Positions 2,430 to 7,103 of a DNA stretch of 64,000 nucleotides are shown here, piece after piece. A model generated the notes under the pieces. It was not told where the DNA came from. It saw only the letters and a list, made by a program, of their open reading frames with translations, and ran no database searches. Source of the stretch: Acidobacteriota bacterium (GTDB lineage Bacteria > Acidobacteriota > Thermoanaerobaculia > Multivoradales > J023); assembly GCA_029263395.1 (NCBI GenBank), contig JAJCXO010000030.1, forward strand, positions 62,001 through 126,000, in the 5' to 3' direction. Numbering within the stretch: the first letter of the stretch is position 1; the number at the start of each line of letters is the position of its first letter. The position numbers and the translations under genes are program-made.

Positions 2430-2532
2430 CGGAACATTCTCTTCATGGCTCCCATTTTCAACAGGGACCACATCTTTACAGGGGACCTCATCTTCCACGG
2501 GGACCTCGTCTTCCTATGAAATACTCCGCACG

Positions 2533-3663
2533 ATGCATAATGAAATCGACTCTATCGAAGACTTCGAGCGTCAGGCGCAGATCGGCGGCTTCGGCTGCAC
2601 TGTCATTCAGGGCCTCGACCTGCGCGCCTACACTGACGCGTTGACAGCCGGCCCCTGCACCGAAGCTGTCTTCCTGGGCTGTTTGCTGGAGGATGCCGCC
2701 ACCCGGCACATCCAAGCCACCGGTGGTTTGATCTTTCCACGCCTGCGGAACTTGCCGTTCCGCACCTATCGTCCAAACCTCTACACCGTCGACGAGTTGA
2801 TGGCGGGCTACCAACGCGGCAACCCAGAGAGCTACGCCAACAGTCTCGACCAGCGAGTTTACGCCCACTTCGATCAACAGCGCCAAGCCCATAGCTTGCC
2901 AGTCCTCGAGGCTTTAGCCCAGCGCCTACACGACCATGCGATCGACAACGCACTCGCTGACCTCTTGCATGGCGCAGAATCCTCGCGTCACGTCATCGCG
3001 ATCATGGGCGGCCACGCCATGCTGCGCACCGATCCCGAGTACCGCAAGGTCGCCCGCATCGCCCAACGGCTGGCGGCACACGATCCCCGCATCCTGGTGG
3101 CCAGCGGCGGCGGGCCGGGGGCGATGGAGGCCTGCACGCTCGGCGGATGGCTCACCAAAGCCGACGAAAGTGTCCTCGACCAGGCCCTCGAGATCCTCAG
3201 CCAGGCCCCGAGTTATCGCGATGAAGCCTGGCTCGACACCGCCTTCGAAGTTCGCGACGCCTTCCCCGATCACGGCGACAGTCTCGGCATCCCAACCTGG
3301 TTCTATGGTCACGAACCGCCCAACCTCTTCGCCAGCCACATCGCCAAGTACTTCTCCAACAGCCTGCGGGAAGACGGCCTCCTAGCCATCGCCCAGTATG
3401 GTGTCATCTATGCTCCTGGCAGCGCCGGCACCATCCAGGAGATCTTCCAAGACGCGGCTCAAAATCACTACGGAACTTTCAAAGTCGTTAGTCCGATGGT
3501 CTTCCTCGGACGCCGCTACTGGACCGAAAAAAAGCCGATCTTCCCGATCCTCCGTGACCTCGCGGCGGATCGCCAATACGGTGCGCTATTGACGCTGGCC
3601 GACGAGGTCGACGAAGTAGTCGACTTCATCCTCGAGCATCCACCGCTGGCCTACGAGGGGTAG
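2533..3663 (+). CDS. LOG-family nucleotide phosphoribohydrolase (Rossmann fold)
   Basis: This 376-residue protein belongs to the LOG/PpnN (lysine decarboxylase-like) family, which hydrolyses the N-glycosidic bond of nucleoside 5'-monophosphates to base plus ribose 5-phosphate. Diagnostic motifs are ASGGGPGAMEA (about residues 190-200) and PGSAGTIQEIF (about 293-303), the latter a variant of the PGGxGTxxE catalytic motif keeping Gly-Thr and Glu. It is longer than plant-type LOG (about 200 aa) and shorter than E. coli PpnN (454 aa), with an N-terminal domain of about 130 residues I cannot name. The ATG at 2533 (MHNEIDSIEDF) is chosen because the upstream in-frame sequence is low-complexity and overlaps yjjX. 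The gene lies 38 bp before the EndoQ-helicase gene on the same strand, so the two are probably co-transcribed. The substrate is inferred, not shown. Confidence 0.8.
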   Translation: MHNEIDSIEDFERQAQIGGFGCTVIQGLDLRAYTDALTAGPCTEAVFLGCLLEDAATRHIQATGGLIFPRLRNLPFRTYRPNLYTVDELMAGYQRGNPESYANSLDQRVYAHFDQQRQAHSLPVLEALAQRLHDHAIDNALADLLHGAESSRHVIAIMGGHAMLRTDPEYRKVARIAQRLAAHDPRILVASGGGPGAMEACTLGGWLTKADESVLDQALEILSQAPSYRDEAWLDTAFEVRDAFPDHGDSLGIPTWFYGHEPPNLFASHIAKYFSNSLREDGLLAIAQYGVIYAPGSAGTIQEIFQDAAQNHYGTFKVVSPMVFLGRRYWTEKKPIFPILRDLAADRQYGALLTLADEVDEVVDFILEHPPLAYEG

Positions 3664-3701: not shown

Positions 3702-6700
3702 ATGAGCTTCTACGCCGACCTCCACATCCACTCCAAATACTCCCGTGCGACGAGCCGCAACTGCGACCTCGAGCATCTGGCATTGTGGGCCAGGCGCAAG
3801 GGCCTTGGAGTGATCGCCACAGGTGACTTCACCCATCCGGCGTGGTTCGACGAGATTCGCGACAAGTTGGTGCCGGCCGAGCCGGGATTGTTCCGCTTGC
3901 GACCGGAGATCGAGCGCGAGATCGATCGTCAGCTGCCCCGCAGCTGTGCTGGCCCGACCCGCTTCATGCTCGAAGTCGAGATTTCGACGATTTACAAGAA
4001 GGCTGAGCGCACCCGCAAAGTCCATCACCTGATCTACGCGCCTGACATCGACACCGCCTCACGCTTTCGGAACAGCCTGGACAAAATCGGCAACATCAAA
4101 TCGGATGGCCGGCCGATCCTCGGGCTCGACTCGCGGCACTTGCTCGAGATCACCCTCGAAAGCGGGCCCGACGCCTACCTGGTACCGGCTCACATCTGGA
4201 GGCCTTGGTTTGCCGCGTTGGGCTCGAAGTCAGGCTTCGACTCGATCGAGGAGTGTTATGGCGACCTTTCCCAACATATCTTCGCGGTCGAGACTGGGCT
4301 GTCGTCGGACCCACCGATGAACTGGCGGGTGTCGAGCCTCGATCGGTTTACCCTGGTATCGAATTCCGACGCCCACTCGCCGCCCATGCTGGGCCGCGAG
4401 GCCTGCGTGTTCAATACCGAGCTCGATTACTTCGCAATGCGACGCGCCCTCGAGACCGGTGACGGGTATGGCGGCACAGTGGAGTTCTTCCCCGAGGAAG
4501 GCAAATATCATCTGGACGGGCACCGGGCCTGCCAACTGCGCTGCAAGCCTGACGAGACCCGCCGCTTCGAGGGTCGCTGCCCAACCTGCCACAAGCCATT
4601 GACGGTCGGCGTGATGCATCGGGTCGAGACCCTGGCCGACCGTCCTGGGACCGAGCCACCCGCCGGGGCAGCACCCTTCAAGAGCATTGTGCCGCTGCCT
4701 GAGATCGTCTCAGAGTTGTGCGGCGTCGGGCCGAAGTCGAAAACCGTTGGCAACCGCGTTGCTGCCCTGGTCGCCCGGCATGGCCCCGAGCTCAACATCC
4801 TCGAACGCTTGCCCCTCGAAGACCTCGGCCGAGACGGGGATCCGTTGTTCACCGAGGCGATCGAGCGCCTGCGTCAAGGTCACGTCTATTGTGAGGGTGG
4901 CTACGACGGCGAGTATGGCACCGTCCGTCTCTTCGAGCCCGGCGAACTGACGGCCCGGACCGCTGTCCCCAGTCTGTTCGATATGCCCGAGCCTGAACCC
5001 CAACCCGGGCCATCCCAGAAGCGAGCCCAATGGGACGCTCCGGTTGCACCCGAGGTAGCTCCTCCTGAGGCTTCTCCTGCTCCAGAGCTTTCTCCAACTC
5101 CAGAGGTTCCTCCAACTCCAGAGGTTTCTCCAACTCCAGAGCCAGCTCTAGCTCCAGAGCTATCGCTAGCTCCAGAGCCATCTCTAGCTCCAGAACCTCC
5201 CCCTGCTCCTCCGTTGACCAATCGCCCGCTACCCTTCGAAACCGCAGCTACGCCACCCTCGGTGCTCGATCGTCTCGACATCGACCAACGCACCGCAGCG
5301 GAGATCGTGGAGGGTCCACTGCTGATCATTGCCGGCCCCGGTACTGGCAAGACCCGCACCCTCACCCACCGCATCGCCCATCTGGTCGATAGTGACATCG
5401 CACTGCCCGAAGAGTGTTTGGCCATTACCTTCACCCGACGAGCAGCGGAGGAGCTAGCCGAGCGACTGGAAGACCTGCTCGGAGCCAAGGCCCACGATGT
5501 CACCGTCAAGACCTTTCATGGTCTCGGCTTGGCCATCCTGCGCGAGCAATGCCAGGAAATCGGATTACACCCGGGCTTCCGAATCGCCGAGGAAGCCGAG
5601 CGGCTCGACGTGATCCACGAGCTGTTTAATCTTTCCAGTAGCCAGGCCGCCAAGCTGCTTTCGGGGTTCTCGGCCGCAAGACGCCAGCGTGCGGCAGACC
5701 CTGGCGCCATCCAACCGACGGTCAGTGATCCGCTGTTGGCCGACCCTTTGTTCACCAATCTGGCCGCCTATGAGACCGAACTCTGGGACCGCAACCGAGT
5801 TGAATTCGACGACCTACTGATTCTGCCGGCCCGGTTACTCGCCGAGCGCCCCGATCTGCGGGACGACTATCGCAACCGTTTCCATTGGATCTCGATCGAT
5901 GAATATCAGGACATCGATCCACTGCAATACCACCTCGTGCAATTGCTCACGCCACCGGAATCCAACCTTTGCGCGATCGGCGACCCGGACCAATCGATCT
6001 ACCGCTTCCGGGGCGCCGAGGTCGGCTTCTTTCTGCGCTTTCAGCAAGACTTTCCAGACGCTCACGTCGTTCACCTGGGCCGCAATTACCGCTCCAGTCG
6101 TGTGATCGTCGCGGCGGCGCTGTCGGCCATCGCACCGACCAGCCTGGTCGGTGATCGGCCACTGAGAGCAGTCCATGACGCTCCAGCCGACAACGTTGTT
6201 CTGTTCGAAACAGCGAGTGAACGGGCCGAGTCGGAAACGGTCGTCCACACCATCGAACGACTGCTGGGCGGCACTTCCTACTTCTCGGTCGACAGTGGCC
6301 GAGTGGAAGGCGACCTGAGCTCCAACCTGTCGTTCGACGACTTCGCCGTGCTCTACCGCACGGACGCCCAGTCGAGCTCCATGATCGAAGCCCTCGAGCG
6401 CTCCGGTATCCCCTACCAGAAACGCTCCCACAACCGCCTCACCAGCCGCCCCGAAGTCCGTGTTCTGCTGTCTGCGCTGGGCCACGGCCAGCAAGAGAAG
6501 ATTCGCACCAAAAACCGGCGTCGTTCCAAAACCGTCCTCGATCGGCTCAACGCCGAGGCCGTCCGCTTAGCCACCCTCACCGAGGCAACCGGCACCAGGT
6601 CTTCCGCCAAGAAGGCCTCCGGCGCCTTGGGCCCAGCGGCCTTCCGCCAAGCCGTCGAGCTGGTCGCACCCCTGGCCCGACGCCACGGCAACGACCTCCA

Positions 6701-7103
6701 AGGTTTCCTGGCCGAAGTTGCCCTTGGCGCCGAGATGGACACCTGGGATCCTCGTGCGGAACGAGTTTCCCTACTCACCCTTCACGCCGCCAAAGGCCTC
6801 GAGTTCCCGGTCGTCTTCATCATCGGCTGCGAAGACGGCCTGCTGCCCCTGCGCTTCTCCACCGACCCTCTCGAAGACGACGCAATCAGCGAAGAGCGCC
6901 GCCTCTTCTTCGTCGGCATCACCCGCGCCCGCACTCGACTCTACCTCTCCCACACCCGTCGCCGCTCCTGGCGCGGCGAGCTGCGAGATCGCCAAGCATC
7001 ACCCTTTCTGAGCGATATCGATGCCTCGTTGGTCGACGTACAACGGAGTGCCGAACGGGTCAAGCAGCGAAACGACCAGCCGAAGCAGTTACGGTTGATC
7101 TAG
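3702..7103 (+). CDS. endonuclease Q (PHP domain) fused to UvrD/Rep SF1A helicase
   Basis: This 1133-residue fusion has three parts. Residues 1-425 match EndoQ-type PHP phosphoesterases: metal motif DLHIHSKYSRATS (6-18), GDFTHP, PAHIWRPWF, SNSDAHSPP and a zinc ribbon (CQLRC...CPTCHK). EndoQ nicks DNA 5' to deaminated bases (uracil, hypoxanthine, xanthine). Residues about 445-505 are a Pro/Glu linker of degenerate 18-bp repeats (SPTPEPALAPEL). The rest is a complete SF1A helicase: AGPGTGKT Walker A (about 544), FTRRAAEEL, IDEYQD Walker B (about 732), GDPDQSIYRFRGA, GRNYRSS, TLHAAKGLEFPVV and FVGITRART. A lesion-specific nick coupled to unwinding from that nick is the obvious model for cytoplasmic base-deamination repair. 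All catalytic motifs look intact in both halves. Confidence 0.9.
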   Translation: MSFYADLHIHSKYSRATSRNCDLEHLALWARRKGLGVIATGDFTHPAWFDEIRDKLVPAEPGLFRLRPEIEREIDRQLPRSCAGPTRFMLEVEISTIYKKAERTRKVHHLIYAPDIDTASRFRNSLDKIGNIKSDGRPILGLDSRHLLEITLESGPDAYLVPAHIWRPWFAALGSKSGFDSIEECYGDLSQHIFAVETGLSSDPPMNWRVSSLDRFTLVSNSDAHSPPMLGREACVFNTELDYFAMRRALETGDGYGGTVEFFPEEGKYHLDGHRACQLRCKPDETRRFEGRCPTCHKPLTVGVMHRVETLADRPGTEPPAGAAPFKSIVPLPEIVSELCGVGPKSKTVGNRVAALVARHGPELNILERLPLEDLGRDGDPLFTEAIERLRQGHVYCEGGYDGEYGTVRLFEPGELTARTAVPSLFDMPEPEPQPGPSQKRAQWDAPVAPEVAPPEASPAPELSPTPEVPPTPEVSPTPEPALAPELSLAPEPSLAPEPPPAPPLTNRPLPFETAATPPSVLDRLDIDQRTAAEIVEGPLLIIAGPGTGKTRTLTHRIAHLVDSDIALPEECLAITFTRRAAEELAERLEDLLGAKAHDVTVKTFHGLGLAILREQCQEIGLHPGFRIAEEAERLDVIHELFNLSSSQAAKLLSGFSAARRQRAADPGAIQPTVSDPLLADPLFTNLAAYETELWDRNRVEFDDLLILPARLLAERPDLRDDYRNRFHWISIDEYQDIDPLQYHLVQLLTPPESNLCAIGDPDQSIYRFRGAEVGFFLRFQQDFPDAHVVHLGRNYRSSRVIVAAALSAIAPTSLVGDRPLRAVHDAPADNVVLFETASERAESETVVHTIERLLGGTSYFSVDSGRVEGDLSSNLSFDDFAVLYRTDAQSSSMIEALERSGIPYQKRSHNRLTSRPEVRVLLSALGHGQQEKIRTKNRRRSKTVLDRLNAEAVRLATLTEATGTRSSAKKASGALGPAAFRQAVELVAPLARRHGNDLQGFLAEVALGAEMDTWDPRAERVSLLTLHAAKGLEFPVVFIIGCEDGLLPLRFSTDPLEDDAISEERRLFFVGITRARTRLYLSHTRRRSWRGELRDRQASPFLSDIDASLVDVQRSAERVKQRNDQPKQLRLI

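Follow-up and report, generated by a model that had tools for sequence, protein, structure and literature searches.

Background

What follows the nick that endonuclease Q (EndoQ) makes at a damaged base appears to be unsettled. EndoQ cuts 5' of a deaminated base, leaving 3'-OH and 5'-phosphate ends, and has previously been reported from Bacillus and Desulfovibrio (PMC4357722). Archaeal EndoQ binds PCNA and is stimulated by it via a C-terminal PCNA-interacting protein (PIP) box, and a clamp motif in bacterial EndoQ homologues has already been noted (Shiraishi et al. 2016, PMC4858679). Here we describe a gene in which an EndoQ-like nuclease and a UvrD-type helicase are joined in a single reading frame, at positions 3702-7103 of a 64,000-nucleotide stretch of DNA (the window) from an Acidobacteriota bacterium (GenBank assembly GCA_029263395.1, contig JAJCXO010000030.1, positions 62,001 to 126,000). 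From its sequence we consider, with a probability of roughly 0.55, that this EndoQ tethered to a 3'-5' helicase would serve as a one-protein starter for the repair of deaminated bases, by a coupled nick and peel.

RepD has nicking activity of its own, and MutH nicks for MutL-UvrD; AddA, RecB and AdnA/AdnB, which work on DNA ends, have a nuclease of the RecB type at the C-terminus. SF1A helicases have 3'-5' polarity (PMC13238157). The 2B region is the part that keeps Rep, UvrD and PcrA monomers inactive, its deletion makes the Rep monomer an active helicase, and MutL, PriC and RepD can activate SF1A monomers, with the orientation of 2B implicated (PMC13238157).

The fusion protein has the fold, the metal and pocket residues and a putative zinc ribbon in common with described EndoQs (PfuEndoQ, TkoEndoQ and the Bacillus pumilus enzyme; family TIGR00375), and also a C-terminal clamp-like motif such as has been reported for archaeal and bacterial EndoQs (PMC4858679). 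However, PfuEndoQ chains are about 400 amino acids long, whereas the fusion continues into the helicase and bears the clamp-like motif at the helicase end; its first zinc ligand is His where PfuEndoQ has Cys, and it falls below the TIGR00375 cut-off. The helicase part shares core motifs and fold with UvrD, PcrA and Rep, but differs from them in its short 2B region, the rarity of GIG-like letters, a stretch of its own at residues 856-867 and its separate clade. RepD-PcrA and MutL-UvrD follow the same logic, in that a UvrD-type motor is switched on at a nick by a partner (PMC13238157), but there the partners are separate proteins, whereas the fusion would combine nickase and motor in one chain and its nick would mark the damaged base. 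The UvrD-type motors of AddA, RecB and AdnA/AdnB are also matched by the fusion in sequence and fold, its nuclease being instead a predicted N-terminal lesion nickase of the PHP type. No description of an EndoQ-helicase fusion was found in the literature searched, as far as those sources were available; the Desulfovibrio homologue in Figure 9A of PMC4357722 could be one, and sequence databases may list such proteins under a helicase name. The architecture is real, widespread and probably old, made of known parts and apparently undescribed.

Results and discussion

One frame encodes both modules

An earlier note on this DNA, made from the sequence alone, had proposed that an EndoQ is joined here by a Pro/Glu repeat linker to a UvrD-type helicase. 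Both domains were recovered by sequence and by fold in one frame of 1133 amino acids (Table 1), and the genome from which the window comes has no second match to EndoQ. A Pfam search identified the helicase (PF00580, UvrD-helicase, E 6.8e-71; PF13361, UvrD_C, E 1.2e-38), which also matched PDB entry 1pjr (E 2.9e-87), and UvrD, PcrA and Rep head its list of fold matches (Z 40-49); it nevertheless misses the NCBIfam equivalog cut-offs of all three. The EndoQ part was identified from its matches to PfuEndoQ (structure 5zb8, E 5.4e-42 by sequence; profile E 1.2e-52). Residues 1-422 of an AlphaFold2 model superimpose on 5zb8 with Z 39.6 and a root-mean-square deviation of 3.3 over 379 of the 398 residues of that chain, and with a TM-score of 0.84 by target length; according to this model the whole EndoQ fold is present, including the C-terminal region. 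With NCBIfam TIGR00375 the score is 137.2 bits, below the curated cut-off of 326.6, and by this measure the module is a relative of EndoQ of bacterial type that stands outside equivalog membership.

The linker likewise corresponds to its description in that note. Its DNA contains tandem repeats of 18/36 base pairs (bp) at 5072-5209, and the predicted local distance difference test (pLDDT) lies below 50 for residues 423-516. The span between residues 417 and 521 ranges from 41 to 146 amino acids over 44 fused sequences. For the whole fusion the mean pLDDT is 81.9 and the predicted template modelling score 0.59, and the model gives no reliable information on the relative orientation of the two modules. 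In one related locus (L011; L and G numbers denote our loci and genomes) the linker, at 7-176, has repeat units of 21 bp. This locus and two others (L013 and L016) break off within the linker region, at contig ends or shortly before them; interruption of the assembly by the repeats may be the reason.

Purifying selection acts on both modules, and neither looks decayed: in comparison with a copy from the same genus (L132), the ratio of nonsynonymous to synonymous substitution rates (dN/dS) amounts to 0.048 in EndoQ and to 0.109 in the helicase. For the linker the ratio is 0.144, but there dS is saturated.

Table 1. Features of the EndoQ-helicase fusion gene (positions in the window)
Feature	Position	Strand	Basis
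Whole gene, EndoQ-helicase fusion	3702..7103	+	single ATG-to-stop frame, 1133 amino acids plus stop
EndoQ module, residues 1-417	3702..4952	+	PfuEndoQ match by sequence and fold; residue counts in 44 and 78 sequences
EndoQ zinc ribbon HxxC...CxxC (putative), residues 274-296	4521..4589	+	alignment with the PfuEndoQ ribbon
Pro/Glu linker, residues 418-520, predicted disordered	4953..5261	+	tandem repeats, pLDDT, length range over 44 sequences
SF1A helicase of UvrD/PcrA/Rep type, residues 521-1119	5262..7058	+	PF00580 and PF13361, PDB 1pjr, fold, catalytic residues
Walker A, AGPGTGKT, residues 544-551	5331..5354	+	sequence reading; K550 and T551 in 44/44 fused
Walker B / motif II, DEYQD, residues 733-737	5898..5912	+	sequence reading; D733 and E734 in 44/44 fused
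Family-typical stretch GGTSYFSVDSGR, residues 856-867	6267..6302	+	G856 and D864 in 44/44 fused; R867 in 41/44
Shortened 2B region without GIG motif, residues 904-1026	6411..6779	+	length comparison with the fused set and helicase paralogues
C-terminal QLRLI, residues 1129-1133, sliding-clamp-binding-like motif (consensus QLxLF)	7086..7100	+	terminal pattern counts

The EndoQ active site is conserved

The PHP-type metal site of the module consists of H8, H10, D42, E93, H108, H164, E197, D223 and H225, and the base pocket includes G199 and S201. Alignment equates H84, H139, E167, G169, S171, D193 and H195 of PfuEndoQ with H108, H164, E197, G199, S201, D223 and H225; E76 of PfuEndoQ pairs with E93 by flanking sequence only, HMMER having left that gap unaligned, and D193 reads Asn in the 7k31 chain. 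In PfuEndoQ the zinc ligands E76, H84 and H139 are needed, as each of the substitutions E76A, H84A and H139A kills activity, and H139, G169 and S171 keep normal T and A out of the pocket (PMC8307549). E93, H108, H164, E197, G199, S201, D223 and H225 were invariant in all 78 bacterial sequences compared (47 fused, 2 split and 29 stand-alone). Loss of key metal ligands had been named beforehand as the observation that would speak against an EndoQ here; on these alignments the checked ligands of the window protein are intact. We consider it probable from this conservation that the protein is a lesion nickase. In two alphaproteobacterial fusions (L036 and L046) H8 is replaced by Gln (DVQIHS for DLHIHS), so that one PHP ligand is lost while the others counted are kept.

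The claim that EndoQ is complete, with PHP motifs and a zinc ribbon, holds for the checked metal residues, but the ribbon starts with His and not Cys: it reads HxxC...CxxC, against CxxC...CxxC in PfuEndoQ, with H274 as the putative first ligand. His is capable of binding zinc, and C277, C293 and C296 are kept in 47/47 fused sequences. This His is not peculiar to the fusion, because it is also found in both split and all 29 stand-alone bacterial EndoQs, besides 46 of the 47 fused ones.

The helicase has a shortened 2B region

The nine catalytic residues K550, T551, D733, E734, Q764, R797, K1031, E1034 and R1075 are present in 44/44 fused sequences. The 2B region spans 122 amino acids in the window protein and 84-122 across the 44. 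Measured from the NYR motif to motif V, an interval that contains 2B, 43 of the 44 fused sequences have 182-227 amino acids, against 259-306 in the 16 of 19 helicase paralogues that were measurable, so that the two ranges are fully separate. GIG-like letters are present in 12 of the 16 measured paralogues and in 4 of the 44 fused sequences, the window protein not being among the four. As judged by these lengths and letters, the full-length 2B with the GIG motif of canonical UvrD, PcrA and Rep is lacking here. Several positions of GGTSYFSVDSGR are near-invariant across the fused family.

A clamp-like motif closes the chain

The consensus for binding to the sliding clamp is QLxLF (PMC4549789). 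As a terminal pattern, Q[LM]xL[FLIMV] was found in 59 of 66 fused frames, in 0/19 helicase paralogues and in 1 of 753 other open frames, the latter being all open frames of at least 100 amino acids in the loci, many of them not genes. The second frames of L072, L076, L060 and L096 terminate likewise. Among the seven exceptions, L096 is frame-shifted and the motif stands in its next frame, L038 has it nine residues from the end, L029, L039, L051 and L062 have degenerate tails, and L042 plainly lacks it. Stand-alone EndoQs outside the fused clade carry the pattern in 14 of 22 cases and an LF ending in 20 of 22. To judge from these endings, it is EndoQ that bears the tail in the outside group and the helicase that bears it in fused proteins; where the helicase was lost, the tail went as well. 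What is new is the placement of the clamp-like motif, by sequence, at the helicase end. That it binds the clamp is somewhat probable. Neither this motif nor the short 2B region, both of which bear on the mechanism, figures in the earlier note.

The fusion is widespread in bacteria

Searching a species-level genome collection with an EndoQ profile gave at least 580 confirmed relatives, the best 80 of which were kept. Among these 80 nearest loci, 72 are fused in one frame, two are split (L072 and L076, with EndoQ and helicase as overlapping neighbouring frames), five have EndoQ alone (L049, L064, L067, L069 and L073) and one is cut by a contig end (L024). The share of 72/80 overstates that of the fusion among all EndoQs, because the 80 are those closest to a fused query. 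A chance join or a frame artefact was rejected, given that 72 of these 80 loci share the architecture. By taxonomy lookup of the record titles, the fused proteins come from nine phyla (Acidobacteriota, Actinomycetota, Planctomycetota, Myxococcota, Pseudomonadota, Verrucomicrobiota, Binatota, Melainabacteria and Elusimicrobiota). Many carriers are metagenome assemblies, and named strains belong to Micromonospora, Saccharopolyspora, Actinopolyspora and Polyangium.

Even samples were also drawn from three phyla, each count including the positive genome on which the draw was centred. In the window's own phylum, Acidobacteriota, the EndoQ profile matched 38 of 297 genomes. Five of these are confirmed as fused (G000, G004, G072, G196 and G228), one match lies at a contig end (G003), four long frames have no helicase match (G203, G247, G291 and G330), and eight matches for which no locus was fetched sit in frames of 72-481 amino acids. 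Actinomycetota, the phylum of L030, had matches in 6 of 296 genomes, five of them in a long frame with a helicase, the sixth being G362. For Planctomycetota, the phylum of L032, the count was 14 of 195; four of the ten loci fetched are fused, and the four matches without a fetched locus lie in frames of 458-557 amino acids. In 58 further genomes from a search among relatives, a set that overlaps the 80 loci, 13 EndoQ matches comprised nine fusions, the three loci cut in the linker region and one fragment (L022).

On the counts of the three phylum samples, bacterial EndoQ is patchy yet by no means rare, the fusion being among its common forms as far as sequence searches tell. The description of EndoQ as a stand-alone nuclease, chiefly of archaea, was only half right: it leaves out the enzymes reported in Bacillus and Desulfovibrio (PMC4357722) as well as the matches in these bacterial phyla. 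The survey for the fusion across bacteria that had been suggested along with it yields the nine phyla given above, and the literature seen understates how common EndoQ-type genes are in bacteria.

In Gastranaerophilales-type records, a run of A, mostly nine, was observed at the junction of EndoQ and linker, with 8-10 A in 11 of 14 loci examined (L072 and L076, around 7239, L052, L057, L060, L071, L092, L093, L095 and L097; A8 in L056). The two split loci, L072 and L076, break into two frames at this run (A9 and A10). The run may reflect an error in assembly or phase variation, or it may act as a slippage site from which EndoQ alone is made besides the fusion.

Evolutionary history

Trees were built from the window protein and 43 of 67 usable fused frames chosen for diversity, to which the EndoQ tree adds three from a phylum sample; five contig-end fragments and same-order relatives were excluded. 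In the EndoQ tree of 78 modules, a branch supported at 97 by the Shimodaira-Hasegawa-like approximate likelihood ratio test separates 47 fused, 2 split and 6 stand-alone modules from 23 stand-alone ones. The helicase tree of 65 modules separates 44 fused and 2 split modules from 19 ordinary paralogues (branch support 99), with two actinobacterial paralogues (L155 and L157) joining beside the fused side by a long branch. These are quick tree searches, midpoint-rooted and without an archaeal outgroup. The EndoQ tree is largely phylum-wise and implies six changes of state when split is counted as fused. Both trees keep the fused proteins together, which suggests, as the simplest reading, a single old fusion after which the helicase was lost several times. 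The fusions are numerous and probably old.

The two modules might also do unrelated jobs, the helicase being a general UvrD-like repair helicase and EndoQ merely a DNA-binding or delivery domain, so that the fusion would reflect co-regulation and not a coupled reaction. The long and variable linker (41-146 amino acids), owing to which the modules are not rigidly coupled, and the recurrence of stand-alone EndoQ inside the fused clade are both in keeping with such an arrangement. A role in binding alone, however, sits poorly with invariant catalytic residues in EndoQ, and a general helicase sits poorly with a clade of its own and a shortened 2B. Furthermore, separate UvrD-type frames were found in 14/14 carrier or EndoQ genomes checked, so a general helicase is already present. 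We regard this explanation as improbable.

Among 72,556 plasmid and 50,697 phage records, none matched the EndoQ module (E 1e-5), and 291 candidate stretches from viral contigs yielded a single partial relative, at a contig edge. These searches bear on the idea that the protein defends the cell by degrading incoming DNA with uracil or altered bases, with EndoQ nicking and the helicase opening the duplex in the manner of nuclease-helicase anti-phage systems. An antiviral role has been suggested for bacterial EndoQ (PMC8307549), and the best PADLOC matches of the fusion are to GajB of Gabija; among the matches listed, though, all fall in the helicase part only. The near-absence from the plasmid, phage and viral records, the largely phylum-wise EndoQ tree and the lack of a meaningful cross-phylum neighbour (defence genes were not searched by name) also speak against defence, which we rate as very improbable.

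Proposed mechanism

The nick-then-unwind order put forward in the earlier note fits the known chemistry and polarity. In the coupled reaction that we favour, EndoQ would flip out uracil, hypoxanthine, xanthine or an abasic site and cut just 5' of the lesion, producing a 3'-OH and, on the damaged side, a 5'-phosphate, as expected from PfuEndoQ chemistry and the conserved residues. The linker would hold the SF1A motor near the nick, where the motor could load on the intact strand. Since it moves 3'-5' on that strand, it would pass the lesion and peel the damaged 5' end. The strand with the lesion would come away as a 5' flap; this direction is the useful one, because the 3'-OH stays for a polymerase. 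With the shortened 2B, a monomer of the motor may already be active, and the place where EndoQ sits would decide where the motor works. The C-terminal QLxLF-like motif would dock on the beta clamp and put the enzyme at replicating DNA; a polymerase would then refill from the 3'-OH and other nucleases would take off the flap. A more far-reaching version is tentative and rather doubtful: an old, widespread single-chain starter of excision repair, in which a clamp-tethered lesion nickase has a covalently attached helicase that has shed much of its autoinhibitory 2B, such that recognising the damage would in itself start strand displacement and direct it, with no need for UvrABC, MutL or a glycosylase.

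The order of events could also be reversed. The 3'-5' translocase would then drag EndoQ along single-stranded or freshly unwound DNA, at forks or R-loops, in search of lesions; EndoQ would cut last, and the nick would not be processed by the motor. PfuEndoQ works on duplex as well as single-stranded DNA (PMC8307549), SF1A monomers translocate on single strands without helicase activity (PMC13238157), and a clamp-like C-terminus would put the protein at forks. Cutting a single strand at a fork would, on the other hand, be expected to break the fork, and the shortened 2B favours relieved inhibition of unwinding over a pure translocase; we therefore find search before cutting unlikely.

Several observations weigh against the coupled nick and peel. 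The 2B region is shortened and not gone: the model keeps four helices of at least 10 residues there, and what remains of 2B could still inhibit the motor. The QLRLI of the window protein differs from QLxLF in its final residue, and the LF form itself is confined to 24 of the 66 fused frames. Six stand-alone EndoQs are nested inside the fused clade, and the clamp-like motif is found in 0/6 of them; therefore EndoQ has been retained without motor or tail in some lineages. Clustering of neighbouring frames over 92 loci revealed, by eye, no meaningful neighbour shared across phyla, although real genes in GC-rich loci may be hidden because the frame picker takes the longest frames. Its widest cluster is ABC ATPase-like, and a cluster of 19 loci consists of antisense frames over the fusion gene. 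Finally, the fusion may be redundant, as the window's own genome has a match to uracil-DNA glycosylase and a weak match to endonuclease V (EndoV).

The fusion points to a 3'-5' helicase as a candidate for the next player after the EndoQ nick and to the clamp as a candidate platform. The pathway is testable with one recombinant protein, genetics are possible since the carriers include named strains (Micromonospora, Saccharopolyspora and Actinopolyspora), and the family can serve as a natural experiment for studying how 2B autoinhibition works in UvrD-family helicases.

Flanking genes and the repair repertoire

Upstream of the fusion, 1884-2498 on the minus strand encodes a divergent inosine/xanthosine triphosphatase that scores above two NCBIfam cut-offs, and 2527-3663 on the plus strand encodes a weakly SLOG/lysine-decarboxylase-like protein, ending 38 bp before the fusion. 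A conserved operon for deaminated nucleotides was considered and rejected: both neighbours were found only in the same-genus locus L132, in 0/11 loci of other relatives, some of them short, and in 0/80 of the nearest loci (E 1e-8).

The own genome contains several further UvrD-type frames. Since these stand beside the uracil-DNA glycosylase and weak EndoV matches, the fusion looks like an addition to ordinary repair, not a replacement for it. Replacement of EndoV by EndoQ was likewise rejected for the window's phylum, where EndoV was found in 15 of 38 EndoQ-positive and 62 of 259 EndoQ-negative genomes, counts that assume both draws of 297 genomes to be identical. Two of the five confirmed fused genomes have EndoV matches, G072 and, weakly, G000. 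The EndoV match in the own genome (G000:C116:19669-20043) scores 43.6 bits over positions 14-138 of 198, and is possibly a diverged EndoV.

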